Origin: Dioscorea cayenensis subsp. rotundata
Taxonomy: Eukaryota > Streptophyta > Magnoliopsida > Dioscoreales > Dioscoreaceae
Length of the DNA stretch: 64,000 nt
Assembly (NCBI RefSeq): GCF_009730915.1
Contig: NW_024086646.1
Location: 1 to 64,000, forward strand
Reading direction: 5' to 3'
Under the pieces are notes generated by a model. That model did not search any database, had not been told where the DNA came from, and saw nothing but the letters and a program-made list of their open reading frames with translations. Positions 1 through 52,867 of the stretch are shown in pieces. Each line of letters starts with the position of its first letter. Positions within the stretch are counted from its first letter, which is position 1. A program made the position numbers and the translations under genes.

Positions 1-90
1 CAGAGGCAAGCCTCTATTATTAATTACCCCAGTTAAAAATCTTAAGAACCTCCGATTAAAGGTAAAAGTACAAGTAAAAAAACAAGAAGA
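1..90. repeat. dispersed repeat, end of an LTR-like element
   Basis: This short stretch ends in the words GAACCTCCGATTAAA. It resembles 29065-29125, where the same motif order recurs: a short AGGGGC/AGAGGC inverted word, then GATTACCC or AATTACCCC, then GGGAACCTCCGATTAAA. Two copies in one window show that it is a dispersed repeat. The class is not determined; the longer copy at 29 kb looks like part of an LTR element. Confidence 0.45.
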
Positions 91-294
91 TCTGCAAATT
101 ATAAATTTTATTATTTAGTATATATATATATTCAATGCATCATTATATGTCAACATATAACTTATATGCCTGCCTGATTGCCATCTTAAAATAAATATAT
201 CTCAAAACAATTTTTTGCTGCAGTCTTGAAATGAATAGGTCACCACTTCCTGTGCCTTATCATCGCGTTCCAATATATATCACATTGCTGCCTT

Positions 295-354
<60 letters not shown>

Positions 355-357
355 TAA
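91..357. repeat. AT-rich spacer ending in a (TA)n microsatellite
   Basis: No gene is seen. The stretch is AT-rich and ends in an uninterrupted (TA)n run at about 298-351 that abuts a strong palindrome. Confidence 0.7.
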
Positions 358-618
358 ACATCATCTGCGGACGTTCGTAGAGTCGTCCGCAGATGATGTA
401 CAGTACTTTTCATAAGGTTGGATGGGTCGTGATTGATTCGCCATTCGCGTCTTGAGATTGATTGACCTGTTCGGATCAAAATACCATGCATCCCACTTTT
501 TACCGCGCTTATAAATACAGTGCACAAATATTACATTCACGTATTGATGCAGTCGCCGTTGATTGAAATCAACGGTCCCTATATCAACGCTCACAGATTA
601 CATTTCTGTGAACGTTGA
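358..618. repeat. cluster of three palindromes, MITE-like
   Basis: Three inverted repeats lie within 260 bp. A perfect 16-bp stem (358-373 with 384-399, 10-nt loop) is built on ATCATCTGCGGACG. A perfect 8-bp stem (556-563 with 568-575) is built on CCGTTGAT. A 14-bp stem with one mismatch (584-597 with 605-618) is built on TCAACGYTCACAGA. The segment is richer in GC than its flanks. I saw no outer terminal repeats or target duplication, so the MITE label is a guess. A 77-codon frame on the minus strand here shows no family resemblance. Confidence 0.45.
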
Positions 619-1740
619 CAGAGGATGCATCCTCTATATATATATATATATATCATTTTCATCTTCCATATATATTCTAAAATTTACCATTCCCTTGAAT
701 TGAACATTCTTGTTATTGTTTCGGACCGAGTAATTTTGTCATTGCTCTAATAGCAAAAAGGATAACAACATGTCATCAGTGTTTGATATATTGTTCAAAC
801 CCTCTTTTTTTATATTGTTGCACATCCCATAGTCCTCTTCATGGTTTGTATCATTGTAGTCACCATCTTTTTCTTGTTTAATCAACATCATCACTATTCT
901 TTTCATTAACCATTTCGAACTAATCATTGGGATCCAGGTTTAGAAACATTTTATATATATATGCATATATTAAATGTTCCCATGAAGCCAAACTCACCAC
1001 CGTTGCTTACCCTTCAATTAAGCTTCCTGCTTGAACTTATGAGATGTTTTGGTCATGTACGGTTTTTTTTTTTTTTAAATACAAAACAACCATGCATGCT
1101 ATTACATAGAACCCATTCTTTTGAATTATTTTTATTGTTACTGAACGTATGCTTTCACTTTTTAATATATTTCTTTTATTTTATTTTATGGCATGCTTCT
1201 ATTTTTTTTTATTATATTTTATATATTTTTTTAATTTTATTTTTTTTATTATTTTTTTATGCATACTTGTCACTCTCTTTTTTTAAATGATGGGTCTATG
1301 CATGTTTCTCATTTTTATATTTTTTAATATTTTTATTTATTTATTTATTATTTTATTATTATTTTTTATGCATGCTTCTCATTTTGGAAATTCCAGGTGC
1401 ATTATTATTTTTTTATTATTTTTATTTTTATATATATTTCTTTTAATTTTTGTAAGTGTCTCTTTCATGGTGGGCCAAACAAATTAATGATCCTCCTCTC
1501 ATTGAGTTTTGCATGTCCTACTAAGAAACAAAGTAGCCATTACGTACTTCCCATGCAATATTTCTATTTTATTTATTATACTTTTTTTTAATCATTTTCG
1601 TTCATCGTGAATTTGCATGCATGGTGAACCCCTGTCTTTTGGATATCTTTTATATGGCTATAAATGCATAAATTATTCATTTTTAGATTTTTACATGCAA
1701 ATCACCTGTTTTGTCTCACACGACCCATGCTCTTTTTTTT
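619..1740. other. T-rich spacer, no gene seen
   Basis: This is a strongly T-rich stretch, especially 1050-1600, with repeated TGCATGC words. The open frames here are low-complexity Phe/Leu/Tyr strings produced by poly-T and do not look coding. Confidence 0.6.
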
Positions 1741-1990
1741 TGTAATTCGCATTTTGCCTCGAGATATGATCTCAGGGGCAATTTTGTAATTTATATTATT
1801 TTTTTATTTGCCTCGGGATTTACATTCTAGTCCAACACAACCAAATAATCAATTAAGATTAAGATTAAGATAATTAAATTTTAATTCTAAATATATAATA
1901 TATTAGAATTTAAATTAAATTGAGATTTGGGTTACATTAAGACATTTGGTTCTATTAGGACATACATTATATTTTTTTTATATATAAACA
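1741..1990 (+). repeat. dispersed repeat, inverted relative to 51375-51640
   Basis: The reverse complement of 51375-51640 matches this block nearly throughout. Shared landmarks in order are TGCCTCGAG/TGCCTCGGG words, ACATTCTAGTCCAA, AACCAAATAATCAATTAA, TTTTAATTCTAAATATAT, a TATTAGAATTTAAA word and TATTAGGACATNCNTTAT. It is probably part of a retrotransposon LTR, but no LTR pair or coding domain was found with it. Confidence 0.6.
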
Positions 1991-2086
1991 ATTTATTCAT
2001 TAATTTATTGGAAAGTTTTGGTTTTTTTTAAGTTATGAAATGTTGTAGTTATTTTGGTTTTTTTTTTGTATTTAGTTTCCTCATAG

Positions 2087-2174
2087 AGGATGTATACAGA
2101 GATGGTGTGAAGAGAAAGGGAACACTATTTGTGAAATTTGTTTGCAGGTGAAAACTCAAAACAAGACTATGGAA

Positions 2175-2207
<33 letters not shown>

Positions 2208-2317
2208 TATTATTATTATTATTTATATATGTATTTATTTATTTATTTGTAGGAATTTGAGTCAGGGTACAGTGCACTAGCCAAAAAGGCTATGGTAGAT
2301 GTGCCAGTAACCATTAG
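2087..2317 (+). pseudogene. RINGv (MARCH-type) E3 ubiquitin ligase fragment, two exons
   Basis: Two exon-like pieces can be read. Exon 2087-2147 is followed by a GT donor and encodes the end of a RING-CH domain, with the pattern [10 protein letters not shown]...CEICLQ. This matches the C-terminal zinc ligands of plant RINGv membrane E3 ligases. Exon 2253-2317 starts after TTTGTAG and is followed by GTAAAC. It encodes EFESGYSALAKKAMVDVP, the segment that in this family follows the RING (normally a PGYTAPP-like stretch). The intron between them is mostly (ATT)n. The N-terminal half of the RING and the membrane segments are absent, so this is a fragment. It sits in a row of other gene fragments on the same strand and was probably captured with them. 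Confidence 0.7.
2178..2245. repeat. (ATT)n/(ATTT)n microsatellite
   Basis: This is a nearly pure ATT then ATTT repeat inside the intron of the RINGv fragment. It is an ordinary simple repeat. Confidence 0.85.
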
Positions 2318-3652
2318 GTAAACCTTTTCTTTAATTGGTTTCTGTGATTGGATTAAATTAGTAATGATTTCTTTTTCCATTAGCTTGATTTGCTTTGGCT
2401 ACTTCATTTGTGTGTAGAAATCCCTTATAAATAAAAGGGAACACATGATAGTAAATACTCACTCAAGTTAAGCAATTTGGCCTTAAGATGCTGTAGGAAC
2501 ATGTGCCAAGTGTCATTTAAAGTACCAAATCTGATACTTATAATCATTATTATTTTGTTGTTTTGGCTTTTATTCTTCCTTGGTATTTTTATTTTTATTT
2601 TTACAAATAGACTGATACATGAAGTTAAGAAACTATTGCAATCCCAATAGACTTGGAGAACACACTAAAGCTAGAATATATATATATATATATATATTAT
2701 GAAAATGGAATCTACCCAAAATTGAAACGTCAAATCTTAATTAAAAGATCAGGATCTAGGGTGAATCTGAGTTGGATCTTGCCTTGTGATGCTTAATTTG
2801 ACTGCATAGAGTATATTCATTTGAAAGGAGATTCTCAACATGTAAGATTATGTTGTTTGTTATGGAGGTATATTTTTGAAACAAAGGAGAGATTATCTGA
2901 GGATGAGCTTAGGTGGAAGGACCTAGATAGTGTTGAGTTATGAGAGTAGATCCAAGGATGATGGTGTCCAAAGAGTCATGAACATACTATTTGAAGAATA
3001 GTTAAGCTTATTTGGATTGTATAGTTTAGAAACTGTAATATTCAAATGATAATAACAGTAGCTGAGTTGCAAATGATGAGGTTGTGCCTATCATTACTTG
3101 CTTAGTATTTTTAAATGACAAATGTTTGTAGAATTTAATTAATTATCTCAAATAAAAACTCTTTTTTAGGTTTGTGGCTTTTCAATAAGATTGCACACCT
3201 TATGCAGAAAATTGAGATTGTCAGAAATGTGTCTGTAGTGAACTGACATCTGCTGAGGAATCTATGGGTGGAAGTAAGCAAAGAATAGTAGTTTGTGGTT
3301 CACATAACAACCATGTGAATGGCGTTTTCGTTGAGGGCTAACCCGATGGCCTATTTTCGTGGTATCTTTAGTTGGTGCTTTTGTACAATATATATGAGGG
3401 GGCTGATTGTAGAATCAGGGTAGGAAGTTGCTTTTCACAAATTATTCTTCAGATGTTGAATATTATTTGTCGGTTATGTACTTCAAAACAAAATGCTATA
3501 TCAACAGTTGGTGGATTAAATTTGACTTTAAATGATGTTCCTTCAGTGATTCTTATGACACATATTTTAGTATACCTTAATTCAATTGTTTGGTATTTTC
3601 ATTTATGTTCTTTTTTTGGCCTTTTATTGAGACATTTTATCATATGGGCATT

Positions 3653-3708
<56 letters not shown>

Positions 3709-3947
3709 AAATTATTGTTATTACATTTAAAGTTCTAGTTTTCTCTTCTTTGATCCATCTTGTGTAATATATTTATTTCGTTTATGCTACCCAAATATTT
3801 ATTTCATCACAAACTAAAATTTGATTCTCTTGTTTCTTAGTTGGAGTTTGTTACCTTTTTCTTTGCTTTTGTCCATGTATTGATGAATTAGTTTTCTGTT
3901 GACTTGTTTATTTTCCTTCAACCCCCAAAAATAAAATCCTTTATCAG
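2318..3947. other. non-coding stretch with (CT)n tract
   Basis: No gene is recognised. It holds a long (CT)n run at about 3654-3706 and a short (TA)n near 2678-2698. The open frame 3372-3710 is mostly a read-through of the (CT)n tract. The stretch may be intron or flank carried with the captured fragments on either side. Confidence 0.5.
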
Positions 3948-4305
3948 CGTTGTTGTTGCAACTCCTCTTGAGAATATTGAAGAACCATTAAAAGGTTTTG
4001 CTTGGTAATTTGATAAGATATTCTTTTATCTCTGTTCCCTCTTGCTTTGCTTTAATGTGCTCTGAGTTATCTAATAATTGTGTTTTAGCCTTATGCAGGG
4101 TGATTTTCATCATTGGTTTGAACTTTTTAATCATTTTGACTCTTTCTTTGAGAAATACATAAAGTCAAGGAAAGATTTGCAACTTGAGGACAACTTTTTG
4201 AAAGAAGATTCCCTTTTTCCTAGGGAGGTTGTTCTTCAGATTCTCCGAGTTACAAGGATTATTTTAGATAATTGCACAAACAAACATTTCCATAGTTCTT
4301 ATGAG
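3948..4305 (+). pseudogene. UPL1/UPL2-type HECT E3 ligase fragment, two exons
   Basis: Exon 3948-4017 encodes TPLENIEEPLKGF followed by the F-D-K of the family. Exon 4099-4305 (69 codons) encodes GDFHHW...LFNHFDSFFEKY...RKDLQLEDNF...NCTNKH. Both are unmistakable for the conserved N-terminal region of plant UPL1/UPL2, giant HECT ubiquitin ligases. The second exon has AG before it and GT after it at the family's expected intron positions. Damage is clear. The codon after the Trp of the first exon is TAA (4006-4008) where the family has Glu, and the donor after it reads AT instead of GT. About 90 residues of a protein of more than 3,000 are present, with no HECT domain. It is a captured or decayed fragment, not a working gene. 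Confidence 0.85.
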
Positions 4306-6206
4306 GTGGATACTTACTAAGCATTTAGTCTACTCATCTATACTGCATACTTAACTATCACATTTTCTTTATTGCATGATCATTTGTCACTGAGTTTTCT
4401 TATTCTTCTGTAAAATTCTTGTGTAGATGTAGAGGGAGGATAGGATTACTCAGATTAGTTAACTTGTTCATTGCTAGTTAATATTGTTAATTTGCTTATT
4501 TTAGAACATTTTTACTAAATGATTCACTCGCTAACGACTCATTGGGTTGAAAGGGAAAGATCCGCTTTTTATGTATATTTTTTATTTTTTATTCTTTTTA
4601 ATGTGTGTTTGTTTGTTTTGCTTATATATTTAAATGACTTTGTTGAATCCCTTGGAAATAAGCTTTAGATAAGTAAGTCACTACAAAAATAAATAGTCAA
4701 AAAATGCATTAGAAAATAAAATTGTTGTACTGATTAATAAATACAAATTCATTGTATTTATGTATACATTCTCTGATTTACTCAGTCATACCATAAAAAT
4801 CGCAGTACTCGAAAACACCTCTAAAATTTTAAAATTAGTGTTATAATATATATATATATATAACCATAGGAAAGCATCCATGAAATGCAATGCACGGATT
4901 TGAAACTTTTACTTAGAATTCATTTGATTTCTAGTGTTGTGTGCTGGCCTAATGCTTGTATGGATTTGGTGATGATTATTTTTTTTATTTAAAAAATTAA
5001 CAAAGTTTTTGTTCTCCCCCCAAAAGAGGTTGGTTATGGCCAGTCCGTGATGCATGTAGTTATGTTTTCAAAGCTCAACATTAAAAAGAGCTCATGGAGC
5101 TAAGAGGGAGAGAGAATTGTCTATGACTCAATATGACCATTTTTAATGGTTAGCTTTTGATTACTTCTGTTGGTGGAGTTTGTTTCCACCAACAAAATTT
5201 TGTGATTGTTATTTCTATGTTAAAATAATGCTACAATTTCTAATGAATTTCTTTAATGTTTTCTTGCTTGAAGTGTCATTCAAAGTAGCTGTTGGTCACT
5301 TATTCAGCAAGGTGAACATGCAAATTTCTTCATTTTGGAAAAATGCAAGACAGTTCTCAGCCAATGCCCATCAGGTCTTGGTGAGAGCCTTTAATGAAAC
5401 CAATAATTCCTGATCTTGTCTTCATTGCCATCATATTTTTATATTGTAAAAATGTTTCCTTTTCAAGGATAAGTGTTAATCTGCAAAAGAATATGATGTG
5501 GGTTAGTTTGTTTGGCTAAGGATTCCATTCTCTTTCTAAAGATTATGGAGTTTCACCTAACTATATAAGTTTTCTACTATGTTTTTCAGATGTTCATCTA
5601 GTTATAAATCTTGACAAGTATTTGTTGACATGTCTTTGTCTGCATACAAAACGACCCTTGTTCCTTTCTATTAGATATAATGCAAAAGTAATATGCATGC
5701 ATGTACTAGCATGTTCTTCATCATAGGTGGGGATAACACAACAATTTTTTATGTCTATATGTAGGTGTTCTGTTTGTTTGAAATTTCAGGATGATTGAAA
5801 GAAACAATGATAATGATTCACTGCCAGTTACATTAATAAAGTAAACTTTGCATGTGATATTATAATTATTGTACACTATAATTGTTCCACATGTAGGACT
5901 TTTAAATGCATTGATACACATTCAAATTGAAAATTCTTATAAAATTTCAATTGGTTGATAGTGAACTTTAAACTTGAGAGTACTCAAAGATGGGCATCCA
6001 AATGCCAACCAGTTCATCATTTTATGAAGATTATTGGTGATATACTTCACATTATTGGTTTCTTAGCTAGTTATCATCTTTATATGCTGGATTTTGGAAT
6101 GCCTGCTCTTATAAGTAAAAAGGGTTTTTCATGCTTGTTCTGTATTGTGATAATTGTTTTAAATAATTAGAGAAATATATTTTGAGCAATAAATATTGGT
6201 CTGCAG
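4306..6206. other. non-coding stretch between gene fragments
   Basis: No family was recognised. A + frame at 5180-5413 ends in a moderately coding-looking segment (HLFSKVNMQISSFWKNAR) that I could not place. A CACTACAAAAATAAA word at 4683 resembles a CACTA terminus but has no partner. The rest is AT-rich intron-like DNA. Confidence 0.4.
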
Positions 6207-6288
6207 AAAATCAAAGAGTGGAGTATGCTTATGGGTATCTCGAAGTTCTTGCAAATGTTCCAAATAGAGTATCTCAAGGGTTTCTTAG
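6207..6288 (+). pseudogene. isolated exon-like segment, family not identified
   Basis: An 82-bp segment is bounded by CTGCAG on the left and GTGAGT on the right, both good splice signals. One open frame reads NQRVEYAYGYLEVLANVP and another reads KIKEWSMLMGISKFLQ; neither could be assigned. It lies between the UPL and CRR42-like fragments on the same strand and is probably a further captured exon. No function is proposed. Confidence 0.35.
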
Positions 6289-7229
6289 GTGAGTTCATTG
6301 TTTTACGCATGAACTCTTTTTCCTCTTTTCGATTTAGCTTTTCAATTTTTTGTCTTCTGATACTCCAAGCAAGATGTCTTACATTAAGTTAAAAATTTAT
6401 TGGGCTAAGTCTGTTAGTCAAAGGAGATTAAAAAGAGAAATAAGTACTGAAAAACAGCATGCTGCCTTGGGTAGATTTTTTTAAAATACATGTGACAACA
6501 AGGGTTTTTCTCAACTCTTGCAATGCATTTATGGACTATCATTTGGTTTCTCCTTGCAGCATACTACATGCTAATGTGTGTGAGCTTGACAACCTATGTA
6601 TTCCAATATTCTAATTGTGTGGATTTTTATGACATGATTTTCAAATTCTAATCTTCTAAGGCGCATTAGCTCTCTTACCTTGTATAGGAATTCATCCATT
6701 CATTCATGTTTTACCTTATTTATTTATTTATTTATTTTTATTTTTTTGAAAACATTCATCTGTGACCTGCTGACAAGTTATACCCCAAACCTCTCTTGCC
6801 TCTCTTTATGTTTTTTTATTATATCTATAATTATATATTTGAAAAGGAATACTTCCATAGGTATCTTTGAGTTTTGTCTGGTCAAAGGACCCTTTTAGCT
6901 ACATCGGACATTAACCTGTTGGGTACTCCAAGAAACCCTTGAATTTGACTCGTATTATACATAACCTATGCATATGCACATACCTATCTGTTTATATGTA
7001 CATCTTATATGGATGTATATGTGTATACGTGTATACTATGTATGATCTTGTTATTTCATTTTTTTTTGTGATTACCGTTACTATTTTCTTGCCATTATAT
7101 CTTTAGCTTTGTTAAATTTCTGGGCTTTATTTTATCTTTACCGATACTTTTTTGTGATTACCGTGTATATGTGTATACGTGTATACTATGTATAATTTCT
7201 TTCTTATCAAGGATGTGTTATTATTGCAG

Positions 7230-7899
7230 ATAAGGCCGAGCTGGAAGCTTCTGATGGAGGTAAGTTGCAACCACTCTTCATGGTTATTATATGTTAAACT
7301 TGTCATCTATGCATTCCTGATCTATTTCAGGTTTAAGATCTTGATTTGTTGGTTGAACATGTTGATGCTTCAAATTATAAGAGGGCATGTTTGTATCTAA
7401 CAAGCTCCTCTAGGTATCTGAATTTCTTTGTGTATTTGAAACATTGAGCTATATTAAATATGAACTCTTGCAGTTAGCTTACTATATTTTCTTTTAACTA
7501 TTTTCTTCTATCGATGACACAATGTTGATGTATTTTTAAGAATAGAATTATCTAATTACTGGTTGAATTTTCTTCACCAAGCAGGTTTTGGAATGCGTTG
7601 ATGTGTGCCATTGTAATTATTTAAATTCCTTGCCCATATTTTTTATTTAGTTTCTTGCATGGTTTTATATTGCTAGTACTATAGGTGGTTCCTTCCCTTT
7701 CAAATTTTTTTTTTTATCGTTTGTTCAGTTGTTGTTTTCTCACAATTGATATTATAATTATTTTCAGGTGGGCACTCAGAGCTTCAAATAGGCTCTCCGA
7801 TCATCATTGTTGAAGCACCACTAGCCTTCAAAAGGCCACGGCTTACATGCATTCATTGAGAGTTAACACTGGTCAAATCAAGGCCAAAGATATGGGAAG
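7230..7899 (+). pseudogene. CRR42-like (DUF3148) gene fragment, frameshifted
   Basis: Exon 7230-7259 lies between TTGCAG and GTAAGT. Exon 7768-7899 lies between TTTTCAG and GTACAA. The splice phase agrees between them, giving DKAELEASDGGG then HSELQIGSPIIIVEAP. After a one-base shift near 7830 the match resumes as LRVNTGQIKAKDMGR. The order IGSP-V-VEAP, then K-TA, then LRVN-G-K-GD-GR fits the small chloroplast protein family DUF3148, to which CRR42, needed for NDH complex accumulation, belongs. The first exon is only ten codons and the C-terminal half is missing. The frameshift marks it as dead. Assignment to CRR42 is from memory of the family pattern and is moderately secure. Confidence 0.55.
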
Positions 7900-8339
7900 G
7901 TACAATTAATTAAGGCGTCATATCATTATATAATTTTATTATAATATATGTTTGATTCGCATTTAAAATAATACAAGATTGTCGCAAGAAAACTAAAATA
8001 TGTATGGGCTGTTTGTTTAGCATTGGGACATATCTTTTGTATGGGAAGCATTTTAAGCCATTAGAGATTGATGAATGAAGGATTGCATCAACTAAGGTCC
8101 TCTTATACATCTTCAGGACTTTTGTAATGTTTCTAGCCATTAAGCTCATTGTGAACAATATTATATTTGTATTCTCTACATTGTCTAGTATTTTCAAACA
8201 ATCCATCAGCCATAGTGTTTTTATTGCTAGTCAGAAGATGTTGAAGAACTTGATTAAAGGAATGTGTATGTATTGTTAATTCAATAAAATGATTTTTAAT
8301 TAGCGATTCAAAAAAAATTTGATTGGTGTAATTCAAGAA

Positions 8340-8766
8340 AATTTAAATAAAATTAATTTCATATAAATTATTTTTTTACAGAATAAACAAAAGCGTGCCC
8401 AAAGCCATAACAAAAAATTTTGCCAAAAATTGTGCCAAATATCATGAAAAAAATATATAGTATATAAAATCGTGCCAAAAAACCGTGCCAAATATTGAAT
8501 CAATAAAAACGTGCCAAATATGGAACCAAAGTCCGTGCCAAAAATCAATGGTAATATTTGGCACAATAGTAAAAAAAACGGTGCCAGAAATGTGACAAAA
8601 TTTGGCATGGTATTAAAAGACGGTGCCAAAATTTATTTGTGACCATTCTATAGGCATAATTAATTTTCGGTGCCAAAATTTATTTGTGACCATTCTATAG
8701 GCATAATTAATTTTCGGTGCCAAATACGGTGCCAAAATCAATTTGGCGCGGATTTTTCTTGTAGTG
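8340..8766 (-). mobile_element. CACTA-type transposon terminus (element A)
   Basis: The block ends at 8766 with GATTTTTCTTGTAGTG, the inverse of the classical CACTA terminus CACTACAAGAAAAATC. Inside lie many subterminal GTGCCAAA/TTTGGCAC words, including a direct repeat of about 50 bp at 8619-8716. The whole block is the mirror image of 9744-10165, so both are the same kind of end in opposite orientation. No matching left end with a CTT target duplication was found in the first 8 kb; it may be deleted or lie outside the window. Confidence 0.75.
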
Positions 8767-9740
8767 CTTACTGAAGTTGGTTACTCAACACGTGATGTGC
8801 CTAAAGTTTATTCATATTATGCATATAGTGAGACTAGAACATTCAAATTCTTGGGCGCACCAGATATTCTCTGCCAGTACATGGCAGAGGAGCTTGTAGG
8901 ACCACCAGATATTCTTGTAGTGTTTTGCATGTGTTTTTTATAACTTGATTGTAAACTTATAGCTTCACTTATGGTGTTGGATTTGTTATTAATGTGTAAT
9001 GCTATCAGATTGGAACTCTATTTTGAGATTTATTGAATTGTTGTAATGCTAATGTTTTCATTGTCTTAAGGCATAATCATTTTGTCATTAGGTACGATAA
9101 TTAAGTTAAATTTTTGTTTCTTTACATTATGATTTTATTAATTACTACAGTCTAAAAGATTATCTCAATATTTTAAACTAATTAAATTCAATTAGAAAAA
9201 TCAAGTTAAATAATAAATTGCTATGTTATTCTTTAATAATCCTTTTAAAAAAATTTCATGCTAAATAAATAAAAATTCATCTATTATTATCCATTATTTA
9301 AATCAAATATTTACTTAAAATATTTTAAAAAATAAATTTCTCTAATCATCCACTATAATTGAATTTAATTAAACAATTTCAAAATATTTTAAAAAATTAT
9401 TAATTAAATAAAGGGTAACTTCACCCCCTCCCCTCATGGATAAGGTTATGATATCACTCCCATATCCACCCAACCAAACATTCAAAAATGGATACCCAAA
9501 ACTTTACATATCCTTATCCCTCTAACCAAACACTAAACAATCTCTATCCTTACTATTAAATCCCTCCAACCAAACACTTAAACATGGATATCCCCATCCA
9601 TAGAATACAATATCCCACTATCCAAACACTACCAAAGGTGAGGCTTTGCCTGGAACTCAGTCTGTACTAGCTTCAATGTGACATCAAATTTAAAGAGAGA
9701 AAGGTACATATATAGTTGTCGAAAACATAAGGCAAAGTAT
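8767..9740. other. spacer between two CACTA ends, with MITE-like block
   Basis: The first 170 bp form an open frame (LTEVGYSTRDVPKVYSYYAY) of unknown origin. The rest is AT-rich. At 9415-9645, CCAAACACT/CCAACCAAACA words are repeated together with ATGGATA words, the look of a hAT-type MITE, but no clean terminal repeats were resolved. Confidence 0.4.
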
Positions 9741-9743
9741 AGT

Positions 9744-10165
9744 CACTACAAGAAAAATCATAAATCGGCATGGTACAATTGGCACATAAATGGGTTTAAA
9801 AATCGTGCCAAATTAACTTTGGCACTGCATTTAGCACCAAAAAATAATCGTGGCTATAGAATAGTCACAAATCCATTTTGACACCGTCTTTTTATACCGT
9901 GCCAAACCTTGTCACTGTTTTTAGCACGATTTTTTAGTGTTGTGCCAAACATTAACATCAATTTTTTGCACAGACTTTGGTCCCATATTTCTCACTGTTT
10001 TTGGCAATGTTTTATTGGTGCAGTATTTGGCATGGTTTTTTAGCATGATTTTATATACTATTTTTTTATGGTATTTGGCACAATTTTTAGCAAAATTTTT
10101 TTGTTACAGCTTTCGGCACATTTTTGTCTGTGAAAAAAATAATTTATATGAAATTAATTTTATTA
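9744..10165 (+). repeat. left subterminal region of element B
   Basis: It carries GTGCCAAA, TTTGGCAC and related words every few tens of bases. From about 10040 it is the inverse of 8345-8480 almost base for base, including the AAATAATTTATATGAAATTAATTTTAT-type inner boundary. Such arrays bind the CACTA transposase accessory protein in characterised elements; that role here is inferred. Confidence 0.7.
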
Positions 10166-11156
10166 AAATATATTCTATAGTTTTATATTGCTTTACAGGC
10201 AAAATGAACAAAAATTTTACGAAAATCACAACTTTAAAAAGACATAACTCGACAAACTAAGTAGAAGTTGAATGAAATGAATAACAAAACATCCAATGAA
10301 TTAATAATAATTTTAGTGCTCACTTGTGCAGTGAGTTTTTTACAAGACTGTAAAGCAATTCCTTAATCTCAGGGTGGAGAGCTATGAGTCCTTAAGGCAA
10401 GCTTTCAATCACATCATGATAACCAGGGAGGTGCAAAAAATAAAACCACCAACAAAAAATCAGGATCAACACACCCTTCAAAACTCACCAACAACTCCAC
10501 ACTTCCCTACAGACCTCTTTCGGATCAACAAGCTCTGCAAACACTCCATAAGGGTCCTTCCTGCCACAACACACAAACAATCAAAAATATATATATCTTT
10601 CAACACAAATCAGAGGCAAATACTAACACCACATTCTGTAGCTTATCAAGGACCATTTCCAATATCTTATGATCCGGCAACCGAGAACCCATTCACGAGC
10701 CATTACAAACACCTTAAAAAAAGGCATTAATAACATCATAAACACCCACCTTCGTTTCAAATTCCTAACAAAAATCAATGCAGAAGCTGATAAAATTCAA
10801 AACCTTGAACTCGGTCCTACTACAAAGCAATGTATTGCATGCATTTCATGATATATAACTTGAACTTGTTCTGCTTAACATCAAAAGAATTCACTCAAGT
10901 GTTTGGATCTAACATACAATTAGTGATGAGAATAAAACATAAAGCTAATACAGTGAACATGTCCATTAGCATAGTCTTCCCCTGCATGCGACATATTAAC
11001 TTCAGCAAAAAGCACCTAAATATCAACCATGCAAGAATGTCTAAAAGGTTGTAAGATCAGTTTGATAAATCAAAGAGAAAGAACAAATATACGGATTAGA
11101 AATAAAGGATGAGAACTTCAAAGGATCAACAAAGCCTCGTTAAGAAGTATACAAAC
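10166..11156 (-). other. interior of element B, coding-like relics on the minus strand
   Basis: On the minus strand, 10340-10425 reads HDVIESLP, stop, then GLIALHPEIKELLYSL. Near 10600-10690 a frame reads PDHKILEMVLDKLQNVV. Both look like degraded exons but could not be assigned. The + strand frames 10374-10730 and 10669-10851 are Thr/Pro/Lys-rich and look non-coding. This may be the 3' end of a captured gene. Confidence 0.3.
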
Positions 11157-12250
11157 CTATAAGATCAATAGTAGGCCCATCTTCAACTGTGACCTCAGTG
11201 ATAGAAGCATAAAGATCCAAAAGTAAGTGAACAGTCTCAGCATGTCCATTCAGCGCAGCCATGTAGAGGGCAGTGACGCCACCATCAGCCTTTTTGTTAG
11301 CTATCTTAACTAGAGCACTGCCAAGGAAAAATTAGAAGAAAGTGATGTAAGAATTTATCAAAAATAAATTTGATGTGGATGAGGAGCAGAGAATTCCACA
11401 TACTCTTCATCAAATTTTGATGTAGAGGTCTCTTGACCTGACCTCATCCTCATAATATGCCAAAAATAGATATGCTCCGCACATAGTCAACCAGTAGAAG
11501 GCGAACACAGCGAGCATGACCATTTAGAGCTGCAAAGTGGAAAGCGGTTCCACCATTAAGATAATCCATTCTGTTAATCTAAAATCCAATGCCCATATAT
11601 TGCATGAGAAGTGTAATAAAAGAAGTCATTCGACATCAGCATTATCAACAAAAAGAACAATGATAACTCATCAGAATCACTTTCGTTGGCTCTGAAAAGG
11701 ATTAGAGTCTCAACAACCTCCCAGTGACCATATTGACATGCTTGCATTTAAGTAGTCTGATAGTAACATGATATTGTTATATCATTATTGGAACTCAATC
11801 AAATGAAAGCAAACATGGTCTTCTTATAAATTCAGCATCTGACAATGAAAATAAATAAACCAGAGCATAGAGTTCATACCATACATAAGATTGAACAAGG
11901 AAAAGATCAAAGCTTTACCTGACCACAAATATTTTGAAGATTTATATAAACACCAGACTCAATCAAAAGAGTGACAATCTGAGGAAGCAGAAGGAAGGAA
12001 CTCATCAAATAAAAGAAAACCATATCTGGCACACCAAATCAAATGGTGGCAAAGCATTGATAATCAGTAACCTCATTGTGGCCCTGTGCAGCCGAATAAT
12101 GCAAAGGCGAATTCGGAACACCAAAGGTGGAATACCGGGCAAGTCGGTGATTGTATTCCAAGAGGGCCTTGGCTTCCTGAAGGTCGCCATCTCTGGCAGC
12201 TGAAACTGACCTCCCTCTTCCGACCTCCAACGTCAGCTTCCTCATCAACA
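11157..12250 (-). pseudogene. XB3-type (XBAT32/XBOS33-like) ankyrin E3 ligase fragment, five exons
   Basis: Five exons read in order on the minus strand. Exon 1 (about 12250-12072) gives [18 protein letters not shown] through [14 protein letters not shown], followed by a GT donor. Exon 2 (11979-11920, 20 codons) gives IVTLLIESGVYINLQN. Exon 3 (about 11756-11692) gives [18 protein letters not shown], with a stop codon before it. Exon 4 (about 11571-11462) gives [20 protein letters not shown]. Exon 5 (about 11325-11157) gives [16 protein letters not shown] through [12 protein letters not shown]. These are the successive ankyrin repeats of the XB3/XBAT32 family of RING E3 ligases. The RING domain is not found. 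Exon order and introns are preserved, so a genomic segment was taken, not a cDNA. It lies wholly inside the CACTA element. Confidence 0.88.
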
Positions 12251-12494
12251 CTCTCAACAAGATCAACCCTCATCGCCGAAGACCTTATTATTTGCTTCAT
12301 TATAAGCAAATAATAGTACAACAATTCATAAAAGTACAACAGATAAAATAAAGAAGACAAAAGAAACATGATACATTATCATCGCCCACGAAAGGTAGAG
12401 TCCAAACTAGAAATAGCAATAAGATATTAGTGGTGTCCTGAAGTCTGTATAAGGAGCGTCATCCATCCAAGCAATTGTTCAATAGATTTATAAC

Positions 12495-12565
12495 TTCATT
12501 AGTCATATATATATATATATATATAGCCAATTAACATTGCTGATATTATATGCAACTGTATGACA

Positions 12566-12625
<60 letters not shown>
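12495..12625. repeat. (TA)n microsatellites
   Basis: Two long (AT)n runs (about 12505-12525 and 12568-12622) lie inside element B. They are simple repeats with no other content. Confidence 0.85.
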
Positions 12626-12626
<1 letters not shown>

Positions 12627-12892
12627 TAATAGACGAGACTAGATATTGAATGCATTTTGAATCGTAGGAATGAAAGAGAAGGCATGTCTTGGGGGAAAGT
12701 GAATGTAGTTACCAGAAGATTAACTGTTGGGGAAGCTTCTAGCCTCCTCTTTGACTTCCTATTAAACTCGGGGCTCGGTTTGTGGTATGTGGTTGAGGAT
12801 CCGTTGACAATGCTTCTCTGTTTAGTTTCTCAAACTCGTTTGTCTGCTTTGTTTGTTACTTTGTTGTGATAATAATAATAAAACACACACAC

Positions 12893-12927
<35 letters not shown>

Positions 12928-13040
12928 GGGGTTCAAGATGTGTGACGGTGTCCATGGGTCTAGTGGTACTGTTACTGAAGTGAATTGGCTTTGTTTGTTT
13001 CTTTGTATCCGTGCAATGTAGATATAATGTCATGTGAATA
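12626..13040. other. interior of element B, no gene seen
   Basis: This holds an (AAT)n tract at about 12889-12926. The + frame 12657-12869 starts in Arg/Glu-rich sequence and shows no family motif. Confidence 0.5.
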
Positions 13041-13044
13041 AAGA

Positions 13045-13955
13045 TGAAAAACTAAATAGTTGCGCTGGTACCTGGCCTTGAACAATCCCTAGTTTAATAT
13101 TTTTAGCTGTTTGTATTCGTTGTAGTTAGTTAATGCAAGACTATACTCATTAGATAAATGAACATTCGAAGAAGACCAAGACTTGCATTGATAATGAGTT
13201 ATTTTTTAGCCGTTTGTATTCCTTGTAGTTAGTTAATGCAAGACTATACTTATTAGATAAATGAACATTGGAAGAAGACCAAGACTTGCGCAGTCTGTAA
13301 TGGTGAAAAACTATATAGTTGTGCTGGTACCTGGCCTTGAACATGTGTTTTTTGAGTAATCTGCAGTTTAAACATATGCACATTAGAAATATTAAGTTGA
13401 ATGAATAATCCAGAGAAAGAGAGAGTGATGTACAGTGTTGTCAAAGATGGCAAGGTTGAGAACCATGAAGGCACGTCTAATGCACCAAAGGAATTGTTAC
13501 TCAAGTCCCTGAAAGCAAAAAACTAATTATTAAAAAAAATCAGCAAAGTGATTCAGAAATCACTGAAAATCTAGCACTTACACATAAGAGAGTGCATTCA
13601 TTCCAATTAAGTTTGGCAAGGACCAGATAACATATTATTCGATAAATACCAGAAATGGAAACAATGATCACTGATCGTATATTATTTACATGAAACATTA
13701 TAAAGTTTTCAACAAAAATATTTCTTCTCACAGTTCTTTGATGCTAGCAAGGCTATTAAGGGTGGGAGGTACTTGCCCGGTTAATTTATTTCGATCGAGA
13801 CGCTTGTTAGAATGTTTCAAGTAGTAAATCTCAATGCATTGCATTTGTTAATTTCTCTTTAGATAAACTTATAGAGCCTCTAATGTCGGCACTAGGTTCA
13901 GTGTTGAAGGAATGCTTCCATTGAAGTTATTGTTGTTGACAATCCTGGTGCATGT
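13045..13955 (-). pseudogene. HPCA1-like (LRR-VIII) leucine-rich repeat receptor kinase fragment
   Basis: Exons of the extracellular LRR region read on the minus strand. About 13950-13869 gives NNNNFNGSIPSTLNLVPTLE. 13807-13733 gives RLDRNKLTGQVPPTLNSLAS. 13624-13582 gives LPNLIGMNALSYV with a GTAAGT donor. 13506-13435 gives DLSNNSFGALDVPSWFSTLP. About 13372-13267 gives VQGQVPAQLYSF then LQTAQV. The order and intron phases match plant LRR receptor kinases of the group containing HPCA1/At5g49760. The last exon and its flank are partly duplicated in tandem at 13045-13170. There is no transmembrane or kinase part. The fragment is captured in element B beside the ankyrin fragment and in the same orientation. 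Confidence 0.8.
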
Positions 13956-15049
13956 CAAAGATGTTAAAACTAAGTATAGTAATTTAGCTTTGATATATAG
14001 AGCTTACACATATATAGAGAAAATACAGAAGAATTAGATATTGCAAACATACAAAAAGTGAAGTGATTGACCTGTATATCCTTTATTCTCTATTTTTGAA
14101 GTCATCCTGCCAAAATAATAACAATAGTAATAATTAAATTTAAGAAAAAAATTCAAGTTGATAACATGATTTTCTGGTGATCATCATCCAGAATGCAGTT
14201 TAATTATTTCTGATATGCAAGAGTCCAGAATATTGGAAACTGCAATTTATCTGAATTCTTTTGTACCCCAAGTTTAATAAATGCACCCCAAGTTTTACTG
14301 CAATTTCAATATTTTTTAATTGATTAAATCCTAAATTACTACTAAAATCTTTTCAACCTATAGTATACAACTTAAATCCATGCAGCACATTATCTGCTAA
14401 GACTAGAAACTGATAAGCCCTGACTCAGTACCAAGAAATCAAATTCATAAGTGTACTCCAAAGCATTAATTAACTGAAACAATCCCAATCAGTCATTTCT
14501 TGATAAGGTTTCAAAAGAATTAATTAAATGAAACAATCCCAATCATTCATAAGTGTCAACGCCCAGAGGAAGCGTACTACTAAAATAGGGTTTCAAAAGA
14601 GGTACCAACAAAGGTAAGTAACTAATGTGAGGACCTAGAATTTGAGAACAAACACACCATAATCCAACCTTGAAATCAAAACTCCGAAGTTTAATATCAT
14701 CAATTAAATTGTTATGCATGTAGAACCAGTTTAAACAATAAAACTCCAATGAAACCTCAATATCATCAAGTTAACAATTAACTTAGTAACTCATTCTAGT
14801 TAGCCTACAGGTTTCACAAGAATATATATATACATATGAGTTTATCTGAATTCTAGTTTCTGTCAAGGTGGTAAGCAAAAACAAGGATTTCTTCAAAAAT
14901 GTCTTTTTTATAGATTTTTTTTTTCAAACACCATTACTATCACAGTCAGTCCTCATCTATTCTAGCTAACCATTCTTTATATATGTATATTATATTATAT
15001 ACACACCTATCATATCATGTAAATGTACATTAATTATTTTTTCCTCATT
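13956..15049. other. interior of element B, no gene recognised
   Basis: AT-rich DNA with a near repeat of AAACAATCCCAATCA words at 14479 and 14532. A minus-strand frame at 14543-14749 has no recognisable motif. It may be introns of the captured kinase fragment. Confidence 0.4.
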
Positions 15050-15560
15050 GCAAGGTATAGTGAACAAAGAAAATTACCTCTTAATTAATGTTGAGGTGGC
15101 TTCGGTGGAAAGAAGTCTTGCTCCTTTCTTTTTGTGCTTTTGTAGGAGCGGTTGGAGGGATGTGGCTGTGCAAATTAAGGGGTAGGGAGGAGCGAGAATT
15201 TGAGCTCTTAACAAATTCCAACCCTAAATACCACAAATCATGACAAACACATCAAAACACGAGATCAAACACCTTAATGCATCAAACCGAAAGCCCTAAA
15301 ACAATTCAATCGATGAAAAAACCAAAGAAAGGTACTTCGATCAAGCACAAACTTCAAGGGTTTCACAAATCGAGATCTAATCAACTCCAAGATGAAGAGA
15401 TACTACGAGATCAGAAGAAGATGGAGATACAAAGCAGCACACGAATGCGAGGATTTACGACAAACAAGAAGCTCTTCAAACTTTCTCAAGAGGGTTTCAC
15501 AAAGAGAGAGAGAGAGAGAGTCTGAGAGAGGAAGAAGAAGGAGAGAAAATGGGAGGGTAA
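15050..15560 (-). promoter_or_regulatory. 5'UTR-like pyrimidine-rich segment (minus strand)
   Basis: Read on the minus strand, this starts with (CT)n, then holds GTGAAACCCT, TTTAGGG-type words and a T-rich tract resembling the leader and first intron of a plant housekeeping gene. On the + strand it appears as a GA/Lys/Arg-rich frame. It lies upstream, in the minus-strand sense, of the kinase and ankyrin fragments, so it could be a captured leader. There is no direct evidence of transcription. Confidence 0.3.
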
Positions 15561-15629
15561 TTTTCTCAGTTGAGTACTAACGTTTACTCTTATTTCAATT
15601 TGAGCACTAACATTCAATTTGTATCTAAA

Positions 15630-15963
15630 TGGGCACTAACTTTCAATTTGATTGCACCGATGAGCCATTTGGGGTTTTCCGATGAAGGTTAGTCGATGTG
15701 GCGCGGATCGCTGCGTGGCCACTAATAATCCACGTCATTTGCACTCGTGGAAGATGCCATGTCAGCAAGGTCAACAGCTGGCCTTTAATATGGCCACGTA
15801 GGATGCCACGTAGGATAGTTGACCTCTTGGCGCATGGCATCTTCCACGGTGCAAATGACGTGGATTATTAGTGACCACGCAAGCGATCCGGCGGCTCACG
15901 CTAGCTTCATCGGAAAACCCCCAAATGGCTCATCGGTGCAATCAAATTGAAAGTTAGCTGCCT
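15630..15963. repeat. foldback (long inverted repeat) element
   Basis: The left arm begins near 15636 with CTAACTTTCAATTTGATTG and the right arm ends near 15957 with its inverse. Arms of about 150 bp pair through CCAAATGG, TTTTCCGATGAAG, CGATCC, ACGTCATTTGCAC and GGAAGATGCCATG, leaving a small centre at about 15790-15810. This is a typical plant foldback or Mutator-like MITE, nested in element B. No target duplication was resolved. Confidence 0.75.
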
Positions 15964-16289
15964 AATCTAGATACGAAATAAACGTAAGTCTGAGATGAGT
16001 GCGATAAATGACGAAAAAGTACCCGAAAATGGGAAGAAAAGTTATTTAATCGATCGTGAGTTTGAATCGAGATTGGGATTCTGTGATGAAGTGATGATAG
16101 ATTCATTTGGAAATTCATGTATTCACTTGCATCAAGATCGGGATTTTGTGATGAAATACTGTAGTTTTTTAACTTACGGTTGTCATGACATGTGTATGTA
16201 TACATACACATACAATGAAGAGAGAACCATCCCACATACAATGTTTTTTTTTTACCTGGTCTATAATATTGTTATATTTTTGGAACGTT

Positions 16290-16830
16290 ATTTAACTCGA
16301 GATTAATATATTATTATATTTATATTTTTAGCATGGTATTTAGCACGGAATTAATATATTATTATATTTATATTTTTAGGACGGTATTTGGCACGATATA
16401 AATATATTATTATATTTGGGTTTTTTGGCATGGTATTTGGCACGGTATTAATATATTATTATATTTATATTTTTGGGACATTATTTGGTACATTATTAAT
16501 ATATTAATATATTTATATTTTTGACACGGTATAAATATATTATTATATTTTTATTTTTTGGCATGCTATTTCGCACTATATTAATATATTATTATATTTA
16601 TATTTTTTGTACGGTATTTGGCATGGTATTAATATATTAATATATTTATATTTTTGGCGCGGTATTTGGCATGGTATAAATATATTATTATATTTTTCGT
16701 TTATTAGTATGGTATTTGGCACGCTATTAATATACTGTTATATTTGTAATTTGGCACGACATTTGGCACGATATTAATATATTATTATATGTAGGTTTTT
16801 GGCACGATATTTGGCACAATATTAATAAAT
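16290..16830. repeat. right subterminal tandem array of element B, about 47-bp units
   Basis: About twelve units follow one another. Each has an ATTAATATATTATTATATTT core and one or two GGCACGGTATTTGGCACG-like words, with a period near 47 bp. The array ends about 200 bp before the terminus. Its composition differs from the left subterminal region, so the two ends of the element can be told apart. Confidence 0.8.
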
Positions 16831-17063
16831 TATTTTAAAATAAAAAAATACATTTTAGCTTTCAATGACTCGATCATGCTAAATTTATCAAATTCAGTAT
16901 ATTCTAGACTAGATTTTGAATCCGAATTAAAAATAATATTTTAAAAAAATTATATATTTGACACAATTAGTTAGTTTCATATCAGATGTTGTGACAAATT
17001 GTCACGATTTTTTTTCCTGTGCTAATTTTTTCGTGCCGATATAGGATTTTTCTTGTAGTGAGT

Positions 17064-18341
17064 ATCCAATAATGAGTTCATCAACAATGAGCAACGAGGC
17101 AAGCATATGTTCCCATTTATGCATCTATGCATCTGCATCTATCTAATTAATTCAAGCTACTGAAATGCCAAAGCTAGCTTTGATGAATTGGGACCATGAA
17201 AGCATAAGATCTGACTTTCATCAGACGCGTTGGAGTGTTGAATTCCAATGAACTTAATCTGTTGACTGGATCTTGACTTCATAATATGTATATGACTCAA
17301 GTCAAAGGAACACAAAGTCTGATAAAAATCAAGAATATATCAGTTTTGTGTCAACAACCAGTCTTAAAAGCCAGCATAAATATATATATATATATATGGG
17401 CCCTTTCTTGCACACAAAATATGACACTAAAAGCTCACCATACTGAGTTTTGTTTATGTTTTTCATTCATTTGTAATTAGTTGAAGATTTTAAATTAAGT
17501 TAAATGAAGGCATGGGCAAGTAATTAATAAATGTTTTCTAAAAATTTTAGTAATTAATAAAGTATTTTTTACCATGTTAAGAATTAATTAATGAGATGAT
17601 CATATGATCAGTGATTTACTACCATGTCTTAAAAAGTTAGATTTATGTCAAGCCAAATTAGAAGGAATGAAAGCTCATTAAACAAAGGTCTAACAAAGGA
17701 CATAAATCCATGAATTGAAAGTTGAGTCCTATTTAATAAAAAGTAGTGGTATGCATTCATGGCTCCATTTAATTTACTAAGCAAAAGACAATAAATCCCA
17801 TTGAATTTTTGTGGAGTTTCAATTCTCTACATTTACTTTGAACAATAAATCCCATTGAAGAAATTGAAATGACAAGTGCAAGTAATGGAAGAATAAGAAT
17901 CAAGAAAGAAAGAAAGTCAAATGAAAGAGAAACAGTTCACTTTCACATCTCATTTACCTTTGAACCTTAAAAGAAGTCAGAACCTCATCAGTGAGGAATA
18001 AAAAGGAGAAGAAGATACAGCACAATGCAACAAGAGATACAGATATAAAAACAAACCTAAAAATAGTTGAGAAGTTAATACCATTTAAAATATGGTTCAG
18101 AGTTTTTGACAAGTCAAGGTCCAAAGAATTAATGCCTATAAATAACAAAGTTTAAGCTTTCATCTCATGAAGAAATCAAGCCCTTGCATTTACATCCAAT
18201 CTTTTCAAATACTATATTAGAAATAAAATAGCTAGAAACAAAAGAATAGAGAGATGAGAAGGGAAAACAACCATACTACCATTAAAGCCTCTGTTGGCTT
18301 GTATTAAAGAAGCTCCCCTCATCCTCTTCAATCTCTCTTCT
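17064..18341. other. intergenic, upstream of GIR1-like gene
   Basis: No coding region is recognised. AT-rich DNA with scattered TTAATTAATAA words and a small (TA)n at 17380. The last few hundred bases are presumably promoter of the next gene. Confidence 0.5.
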
Positions 18342-18349: not shown

Positions 18350-18537
18350 GCCATTCAACCCTCATGACCACCACCACCACCACTATCATCATCATCTCTT
18401 CACAACTCCTTCCCAAACACCATCACCATCATCATCAAGGTATGCCCATGTCCATATATATATTTGATAAAAGTTTTCATATAGTATTTTGAGTGCATGA
18501 ATATATGTTTGTTTAGTTATTATTGGAGAAAAGAAAC

Positions 18538-18885
18538 ATGAATGGGAAGAGCCCAAAGTTGGAGTTGAAGCTGAACCTATCACCACCAAGGAGGGGGAGT
18601 GCAGGACCATCAAGAGAGAGAGAGGAACATAACTCACCAAACAAATCATCTCCAATGTCTCCAAGATCACCACAAAGCTCATGCTTATCATCAGAGAGTG
18701 ATCAAGGGATGAAACACTACTCCAGCAGCCCTGAAACAGCATCCATGGTGCTTGCTGGCTGCTCAAGGTGCTTGATCTATGTCATGGTTTCTGAAGAGGA
18801 CCCGAAGTGCCCCAAGTGCAAGAGTCTTGCCCTTCTTGATTTCCTTAATGACAACACTGAAAATAAGAAGAATAACAAGATCTAA
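18538..18885 (+). CDS. GIR1/GIR2-like EAR-motif transcriptional repressor
   Basis: A small protein of 115 residues. Near the N-terminus is KLELKLNLSPP, an LxLxL EAR motif that recruits TOPLESS-type corepressors. The middle is Ser/Pro-rich (SPRSPQSSCLSSESD). The C-terminus carries the family's conserved block SMVLAGCSRCLIYVM then EEDPKCPKCKS and LLDF, with two CxxC pairs. This architecture and length match Arabidopsis GIR1/GIR2 (GLABRA2-interacting repressors, trichome and root-hair control). I chose the ATG at 18538; the frame extends 15 bases upstream but without an ATG. A leader intron is likely at 18440-18516 (AAG/GTATGC to GTTTAG). The frame is intact and the gene looks functional. A (GAA)n tract lies in the 3' region (19027-19058). 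Confidence 0.9.
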   Translation: MNGKSPKLELKLNLSPPRRGSAGPSREREEHNSPNKSSPMSPRSPQSSCLSSESDQGMKHYSSSPETASMVLAGCSRCLIYVMVSEEDPKCPKCKSLALLDFLNDNTENKKNNKI

Positions 18886-31623: not shown

Positions 31624-31990
31624 TGTTGAAATTAATCATGTTGTAGTAATCAGTTAATTTTTATTTTATATTTTCTGCATGAGTTTGTGTGCATGCATGA
31701 GTGTACATGCATGCATGAATTTGTGTGCATGCATGAGTTTGTGTCATAAAAATGTTTGAATGAGTCAGTTAAGACACGTTCATGGTTGACGCTGTCAAAG
31801 CATGTCGTGACTCAAGAGTCGGGCACGTTTGTTAGCCCACGTTGTTTTCTCTCTGTGACTGGATGTTTATATAAAGATAAAAAAAATCAGAAAAGCTGTA
31901 ACTTTGACATCACAAAAAAAATTCTTATTGTCTCACATTGCATGAAAACAAATACGAAACCATAGACAAAGCTCCGATTTGTTACCTACA
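31624..31990 (+). repeat. 5' LTR of the copia element
   Basis: 367 bp, from TGTTGAAATTAATCATG to TTGTTACCTACA. It contains a GCATGCATGAGTTTGTGT repeat and, near its middle, TATATAAAG (about 31868), a plausible TATA box. Confidence 0.95.
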
Positions 31991-31992
31991 CG

Positions 31993-32004
31993 TGGTATCA
32001 GAGC
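31993..32004 (+). other. primer binding site (initiator tRNA-Met type)
   Basis: TGGTATCAGAGC lies two bases after the 5' LTR; this is the usual copia primer site complementary to the 3' end of plant initiator tRNA-Met. Confidence 0.9.
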
Positions 32005-32029
32005 TGGTGCTAAGTTTGATCCTACCAAA

Positions 32030-33037
32030 ATGTCAGATCATGGAGCTGGTTCTCTTTCAAGATCTTCTTCTGCACCTACGCTCCGCAACCAAGGTGATGG
32101 TAGTAGCGGAAGTGGCAACGACGACCACAACGTTGTGGTGCAGCGAGTGGTGAAGGAGACTAGGGGCACAGTGGTTTATCCAATGTTGACCCGTACGAAT
32201 TATGGTGAGTGGTCTCTCTTGATGAGGATGAACTTGGAGGCACAGGGACTATGGGACGCAATCAAACCTGGAAACGTTGACTACCGGGATGACCGAATGG
32301 CGTTATCTGCCATCCTTCGGGCCGTATCATCCGAGATGCTGTCGACTCTCACCATCAAAGATACGGCCAAGCAAGCATGGGATGCTGTGAAGACCATGCG
32401 AATGGGTGCCGAGCGTGCACAAGAAACAAAAGCGCAGACGTTGCGTGCAGAATTCGAGTCTATCAAGTTCAAGGATGGTGAAACAGTCGACGAATTCGCC
32501 ATGCGGCTCACTGGTTTAGTAAACAATATGAGAATCTTGGGTGACAATATCGACGACAAGAGGGTTGTGAAGAAGTTCCTTCGTGTCGTTCCTCTGAGGT
32601 ACATGCAGGTCGCGATCTCCATTGAGACACTCGCCGACCTCAAAACACTAACCGTGGAGGAACTCACAGGACGGCTCAAAGCTGTTGAGGAACGCTACGA
32701 GCTCGGCAGCGACAATGGTGGCACTAACAGTAAACTGTTCTTCACTGAGGAGGAGCAGTTTGTTCACCAGAAAAGGAGAGAACACGGGGATGGTTCTTCT
32801 GGTGGAGACAAAGGAAGCAGTATTGGTGGTGATAATCGTTGTCGTGGCAAGCAACGTGGCCGTGGCCGTGGCCGCGGCACGACAGTAGGCAGCCGTGACA
32901 TGACCAAGGTCAAGTGTTTCAATTGTAACATCTACGGCCATTTTTTGAAGGAATGTCGAAAACCACGCCGCAAACCCAAGCAGGTGGTGAACCTTACGCA
33001 AGTGCAAGACAACGCACCGGCGATGTTAATAGCATAG
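32030..33037 (+). CDS. copia gag (capsid-nucleocapsid) region
   Basis: 335 residues from the first ATG after the primer site. It has the copia gag core (YGEWSLLMRMNLEAQGLWDA, then AKQAWDAVKTMR and VKKFLRVVPLRY), a Gly/Arg-rich stretch (RGKQRGRGRGRGT) and a CCHC zinc knuckle, CFNCNIYGHFLKEC. In copia elements this frame normally runs on into protease. Here a TAG at 33035 ends it, and the same frame continues beyond, so the stop is probably a later mutation. Confidence 0.88.
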   Translation: MSDHGAGSLSRSSSAPTLRNQGDGSSGSGNDDHNVVVQRVVKETRGTVVYPMLTRTNYGEWSLLMRMNLEAQGLWDAIKPGNVDYRDDRMALSAILRAVSSEMLSTLTIKDTAKQAWDAVKTMRMGAERAQETKAQTLRAEFESIKFKDGETVDEFAMRLTGLVNNMRILGDNIDDKRVVKKFLRVVPLRYMQVAISIETLADLKTLTVEELTGRLKAVEERYELGSDNGGTNSKLFFTEEEQFVHQKRREHGDGSSGGDKGSSIGGDNRCRGKQRGRGRGRGTTVGSRDMTKVKCFNCNIYGHFLKECRKPRRKPKQVVNLTQVQDNAPAMLIA

Positions 33038-52527: not shown

Positions 52528-52867
52528 AAGAGAAGTCGCCGTCGCCGCTGCTGCCTATCAAAGAGATCACGGACATGGTTGAATAGCTGAAATAATGCTG
52601 CCAACCATGTTCGATACCCACTGCTTCTACTGCCTAATGATCGTCGCTGCTTGACGCTGTTGCCATCGTCGTTACTTGCTCGCCACTGCTGCCGGTCAAC
52701 GAGGTCGCGGACATGGTTGAATGGCTGAAATAATGCTGTCAACCATGTTCGGTACACGCTTCTTCACTGCTCCCCTCTCTCTCTCTTTCGCTCTTTCTAT
52801 ATTCATCTTTCTTGGTCTCTCTACCTCTTTCTCTCTTGTGGTTGTGCTTGGAAAGCCGAGGTCGAGA
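52315..52867. repeat. leader-like segment with a 140-bp-spaced direct repeat
   Basis: GGACATGGTTGAATRGCTGA and the following AATAATGCTGYCAACCATGT occur at about 52571 and 52711. (TA)n lies at 52505-52527 and a CT-rich tract at 52767-52840. It joins directly to the GME pseudogene start and could be a retroelement leader or the 5'UTR of the retrocopied gene. Confidence 0.4.

Follow-up and report, generated by a model that had tools for sequence, protein, structure and literature searches.

A probable complete Pack-CACTA transposon carrying pieces of at least three host genes in Dioscorea cayenensis subsp. rotundata

The window analysed in this work is a 64,000 nt stretch of DNA of Dioscorea cayenensis subsp. 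rotundata (contig NW_024086646.1, positions 1-64,000, forward strand). Its segment 9744-17060 is very probably a complete non-autonomous transposon of the CACTA (En/Spm) type, 7317 bp long and referred to below as element B. With the same high confidence we propose that the element, or a forerunner of it, took in pieces of at least three host genes, that it was inserted with duplication of AGT, and that the pieces decayed.

The sequence CACTACAAGAAAAATC was found without mismatch at both ends of element B in inverted orientation (9744-9759 on the plus strand and 17045-17060 on the minus strand). Under an order-1 Markov model only 1.1e-4 exact copies of this 16 nt sequence are expected per window, counting both strands. 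Directly outside the termini lies the target-site duplication AGT (9741-9743 on the left, 17061-17063 on the right); the chance of such a 3 bp agreement between two flanks is approximately 2%. Inverted ends with AGT on both sides had been claimed in a first-pass annotation of this DNA, and the exact termini and the positions of the two AGT copies bear this out. The longer terminal arms (9739-9786 and 17018-17065, five flanking bases being included in each) are 83% complementary.

Next to both termini the hexamer TGGCAC/GTGCCA is strongly enriched. On the left the region rich in this motif spans 9744-10169 (plus strand), whereas the right end contains an array of 11.9 copies of a 48 nt unit with TGGCAC motifs (16272-16834). 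The motif occurs 6 times in the 457 bases of the left end (9744-10200; 13.1 per kb) and 7 times in the 860 bases of the right end (16201-17060; 8.1 per kb), compared with a single occurrence in the 6000 bases of the interior (10201-16200; 0.17 per kb) and 17 in the 46940 bases of 17061-64000 (0.36 per kb). Element B thus has the inverted termini starting with CACTA, the 3 bp duplication and the subterminal repeat arrays in two orientations that define the CACTA (En/Spm) superfamily.

Read on the minus strand, the interior contains, in this order, a pyrimidine-rich segment, leucine-rich repeat (LRR) exons, ankyrin exons and bromodomain pieces. Exon borders were inferred by eye and by comparison with known relatives, and the profile matches given below were obtained with exon peptides joined by hand. 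One piece is an ankyrin-repeat fragment of five inferred exons (12260-12072, with an approximate start, 11978-11919, 11756-11685, 11578-11400 and 11317-11157; minus strand), whose joined peptide matched the Pfam family Ank_2 with an E-value of 1.6e-26. The five minus-strand ankyrin exons of the first-pass annotation were thereby confirmed at about 12260-11157. The fragment is decayed: exon 3 has an in-frame TAA and has lost its donor, and exon 4 carries a 1 nt frameshift. Exons 4 and 5 join out of frame as inferred, which makes the border there doubtful. Eight of the nine inferred borders of this piece have canonical splice signals. We take the piece to be XB3/XBAT33-like, a putative label given for its resemblance to that family. 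The PDB search returned ankyrin repeats in general, and no XB3-type chain was among the best 60 of 406 matches.

The LRR fragment consists of four inferred minus-strand exons (13944-13873, 13803-13732, 13649-13582 and 13508-13434) with lengths of 72, 72, 68 and 75 nt. The length of the third, in which 1 nt is deleted, falls 1 nt below a multiple of three. Damage to two acceptors and a donor leaves five of the eight inferred borders canonical. The joined peptide matched LRR_1 with an E-value of 2.4e-10 in Pfam. A further LRR exon, VQGQVPAQLYSFSPLQT, is present in part and in two copies (13343-13298 and 13084-13039, minus strand) that are 91% identical over 46 nt, so that of the at least five HPCA1-like exons announced previously four were found and the fifth is only partial. 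The region 13039-13343 contains local duplications: the 46 nt stretch with the LRR exon piece is repeated at a distance of 259 bp (91%), and an 87 nt unit at 103 bp (95%).

Residues 3-119 of the LRR query are collinear with residues 226-342 of the HPCA1 chain in the PDB over several exons. By whole-chain score HPCA1 ranked only 39th of 222, since longer receptors gain score from their many repeats. When the last 54 residues were used, a stretch passed 1e-5 on its own in just 3 of 43 rows, all of them HPCA1 chains; with a 72-residue query and a threshold of 0.001, a stretch passed alone in 12 of the best 60 of 69 matches, three of the 12 being HPCA1. Taking into account that the closest plant paralogues are perhaps absent from the PDB, 'HPCA1-like' should be read as a family label.

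The third piece, overlooked by the first-pass annotation, derives from a bromodomain protein, so the two host genes counted there are an undercount and at least three are represented. It comprises parts of three inferred minus-strand exons (10690-10636, 10560-10515 and 10430-10398). The joined peptide, which contained one assumed lysine, matched PF00439 in Pfam (E-value 3.5e-5) and chains of BRD1 and BRD9 in the PDB (best E-value 1.4e-4). The reading frame is lost at the join of exons 1 and 2 and kept between exons 2 and 3; two of the four inferred borders are canonical.

In a six-frame Pfam scan of element B (E-values up to 1) no transposase family was detected, although such a scan has little power for short pieces. 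Neither a RING nor a protein kinase family was found in the same scan, which also overlooked the LRR and bromodomain pieces, so that short remnants could have escaped it. The plus strand of the element gave no match at all, and Rfam gave none anywhere in the window at gathering thresholds. Of the E3 ligase and the receptor kinase designated earlier, the ankyrin and LRR exons were found and no RING or kinase domain, and 'E3 ligase' and 'receptor kinase' are names of likely parents, not of domains found. The minus orientation assigned to both pieces was correct. With host coding DNA inside (three domain matches) and no transposase of its own in the six-frame scan, the element has the features of a Pack-CACTA, and there is good support for this earlier classification: inverted termini, a duplicated target site, repeats next to both ends, and exon pieces of foreign genes together with introns.

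The arrangement of the pieces raises the question of expression. As previously described, a pyrimidine-rich, leader-like segment is located upstream of both the LRR and the ankyrin piece (15080-15553, minus strand); its C+T content of 61.8% was equalled or exceeded in 2.8% of 1272 overlapping segments of the same length on both strands. Its 5' side is adjoined by a nested insertion of 470 bp resembling a miniature inverted-repeat transposable element (MITE) (15555-16024; 15545-16034 with flanks), which would have shifted any promoter further upstream by 470 bp. This insertion had escaped the first-pass annotation. Its arms form an inverted repeat (GGGTA...TACCC), and it is flanked on either side by GAAAATGGGA, a 10-mer with one further occurrence in the window (26405). 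Past the first bases its ends align poorly, with a 15 nt gap. It resembles a Mutator-type MITE, a type with duplications of about 9 bp.

It is conceivable that element B makes a spliced chimeric transcript in which the leader-like segment is followed by the three gene pieces in their order on the minus strand, and that the RNA or a peptide derived from it is functional. The common minus orientation of the three recognised pieces downstream of the pyrimidine-rich segment would fit such a transcript, as would the splice signals: over all three pieces, 15 of 21 inferred borders have the expected GT or AG. A precedent is provided by Tgm-Express1, a CACTA element of soybean, for which spliced chimeric RNAs have been described; in the available portion of that source, however, the isolated RNAs started at the promoter of the host gene and not within the element (PMC1947982). 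Further arguments against this possibility are the six damaged borders, which also make the earlier statement that splice signals were kept true for 15 borders and overstated as a whole, the frameshift carried by each of the LRR and ankyrin fragments, the in-frame ankyrin stop, and the nested insertion immediately upstream of the leader-like segment. When the complete exons of all three pieces were joined in order, leaving out the leader and the partial LRR exons, the longest open stretch was 113 codons, partly in wrong frames. We regard a functional chimeric transcript as quite unlikely, although co-transcription of the pieces as such may occur. A fused protein was considered and rejected on account of the frameshift in both the LRR and the ankyrin piece, the stop in the latter and the limit of 113 codons; judged from these features, translation of the gene pieces into protein is very unlikely.

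Element B has a neighbour of the same family. At 8751-8766, 977 bp away, the terminus CACTACAAGAAAAATC is present once more as an exact copy facing the opposite way, and it is the only related end in the window besides the two of element B. It belongs to the left end of a second element, element A (8341-8766, minus strand), inverted relative to element B: read on the minus strand, 8341-8677 shares 79% identity with 9830-10169 of element B (E-value 5e-82), and 8341-8766 contains 11 TGGCAC/GTGCCA core motifs. The flank beyond this end is CTT. None of the three CACTA[CG] sites on the plus strand before 8300 has a CTT flank, and element A is either interrupted by the start of the window, truncated or provided with an altered far end.

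Behind the end of element A, on the plus strand between 3946 and 7420, lie two further host-gene fragments. The first (about 3946-4305, with an in-frame stop) matched PF06012 (DUF908) with an E-value of 5.4e-6, which is below the family cut-off, and HUWE1 weakly in the PDB (0.033); we take it to be UPL1-like. The second, RPN1-like piece (about 7229-7420) matched PF17781 (1.5e-5) and the proteasome subunit 8amz_Z (5.3e-8). Since a far end with a CTT flank was not found, these two pieces are likely, and no more than likely, to be part of an element. It is probable that 1-8766 is a second, inverted Pack-CACTA of the family of element B. On the minus strand of 1-8340 Pfam returned one weak stray match (TopBP1_BRCT0, 0.083), and three peptides from open reading frames behind the end of element A were without a Pfam match at E-values up to 1, one of them also without a PDB chain. 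A coding-like open frame of 58 codons (8767-8940) begins at the 8766 end; it gave no Pfam match at E-values up to 1 and three weak matches in the PDB (0.28 to 0.94).

The presence of a third family end at a distance of 977 bp shows that ends cluster in this region. This would agree with the alternative, raised already in the first-pass annotation, that the ends of element B stem from two different insertions and enclose gene pieces that are simply pseudogenes of the ordinary genome. No sign of this was seen. A lone core motif across the 6 kb interior, as opposed to the dense ends, gives no indication of termini from two insertions; moreover, the AGT flanks agree and the two opposed ends each have their own subterminal array. 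In our judgement three unrelated gene pieces in a row would also be improbable as ordinary genome. Taken together, we consider an origin from two insertions highly improbable. It is scarcely credible that A and B together form a single larger mobile unit, extending from near or beyond the window start to 17060, as might be thought from the related inverted ends 977 bp apart with gene pieces on both sides, because the 8766 end is flanked by CTT and not by AGT, the left ends of A and B are just 79% identical, and the search of the CACTA[CG] sites yielded no far end of A.

The preferred explanation, a complete CACTA element with captured host DNA, can be put in the form of a sequence of steps. 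Element B or its forerunner would have taken in genomic pieces, exons together with introns, of at least three unrelated genes, once or repeatedly. Non-autonomous CACTA elements depend for their movement on the transposase that an autonomous relative supplies. Such a transposase, acting in trans and binding the subterminal repeats, would have mobilised the element, and insertion at the present site would have duplicated AGT. The gene pieces would have decayed afterwards and are probably untranslated; if transcribed, they may give rise to a chimeric RNA that is non-coding or a source of small RNAs. For capture, a mechanism has been proposed in which adjacent insertions are mobilised jointly (available portions of PMC8903248 and PMC13317346), and the DNA of element B was most likely acquired in this way, with neighbouring compatible insertions moving as one and carrying the DNA between them. 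The neighbour at 977 bp resembles the first step of this model, yet it is inverted.

This orientation is one of several points that weigh against the proposed history. In the accessible part of the literature source, local pairs were mostly in the same orientation (12 of 15 for maize hAT and 12 of 13 for PIF elements), and a conserved orientation was also reported for Arabidopsis Pack-CACTA elements (PMC8903248), unlike the inverted 8766 end. Capture by element B itself rather than by a forerunner can only be presumed. The bromodomain and LRR matches depend on hand-joined exon peptides, and the six-frame Pfam scan of element B returned ankyrin families alone, apart from a weak stray match to CD34_antigen (0.21). 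Six peptides from open reading frames of the element had no Pfam match at E-values up to 1, among them one that includes bromodomain exon 3 read in its own frame.

All five recognised pieces, three in element B and two behind the end of element A, face the homologous left end. As five alike would arise by chance in 1 of 16 cases, the shared orientation is merely a hint. This family may capture or retain gene pieces in a preferred direction, as could happen if reading from one end were favoured, although the odds are clearly against it. As to which way captured pieces point within CACTA elements, the literature search yielded a single source, PMC8903248, of which a part was available.

Several CACTA elements with captured host DNA have been described. 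Tgm-Express1, reported in 2007, is 5.7 kb long, contains fragments of five host genes and is located within an intron of an expressed gene; its spliced chimeric transcripts start at the host gene promoter (PMC1947982, as far as the available text goes). It is similar to element B in being a CACTA element, in size, in its inverted-repeat ends and in the presence of exons and introns from several unrelated genes, but according to the same partial source the genes are others, its host gene is expressed and chimeric RNAs are produced, whereas for element B no enclosing gene was seen. The Pack-CACTA elements of Arabidopsis and maize share with element B the CACTA-type ends and captured coding DNA; their annotation, by the available part of PMC8903248, rests on copy number and clustering. 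The neighbour of element B is in inverted orientation. CACTA-like elements of Chenopodium have likewise taken up gene fragments and carry tandem arrays towards one of their ends, but the examples in the accessible text retain element coding domains (TAD) (PMC8978399), in contrast to element B, in which no transposase family was found. The literature search returned no publication joining a CACTA transposon with captured ankyrin and bromodomain pieces, and no match to the 15 nt word CACTACAAGAAAAAT.

Beyond element B, the open frame 18517-18885 encodes a GIR1-like zinc ribbon (PF24747, 1.3e-21) and is likely to belong to a host gene about 1.5 kb away. Judged by reading the translations, Copia-like retrotransposon open frames are present at 31946-35622, and in the region 52729-54013 epimerase-like frames are followed by a Gypsy-like open frame. 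The former we take to be pieces of a GDP-mannose 3,5-epimerase with a frame change.

Since CACTA elements with several host-gene pieces are known, element B adds to a known kind. Taken alone it is of limited consequence, as Tgm-Express1, with fragments of five genes, has been on record since 2007 (PMC1947982, available portion). Element B is nevertheless probably a clean and complete case of gene-fragment capture by a CACTA transposon. Beside it lies a family member in opposite orientation, a layout close to the one from which capture is proposed to start. Surveying the whole family in the D. cayenensis genome could test the capture model and the preferred orientation of the pieces.

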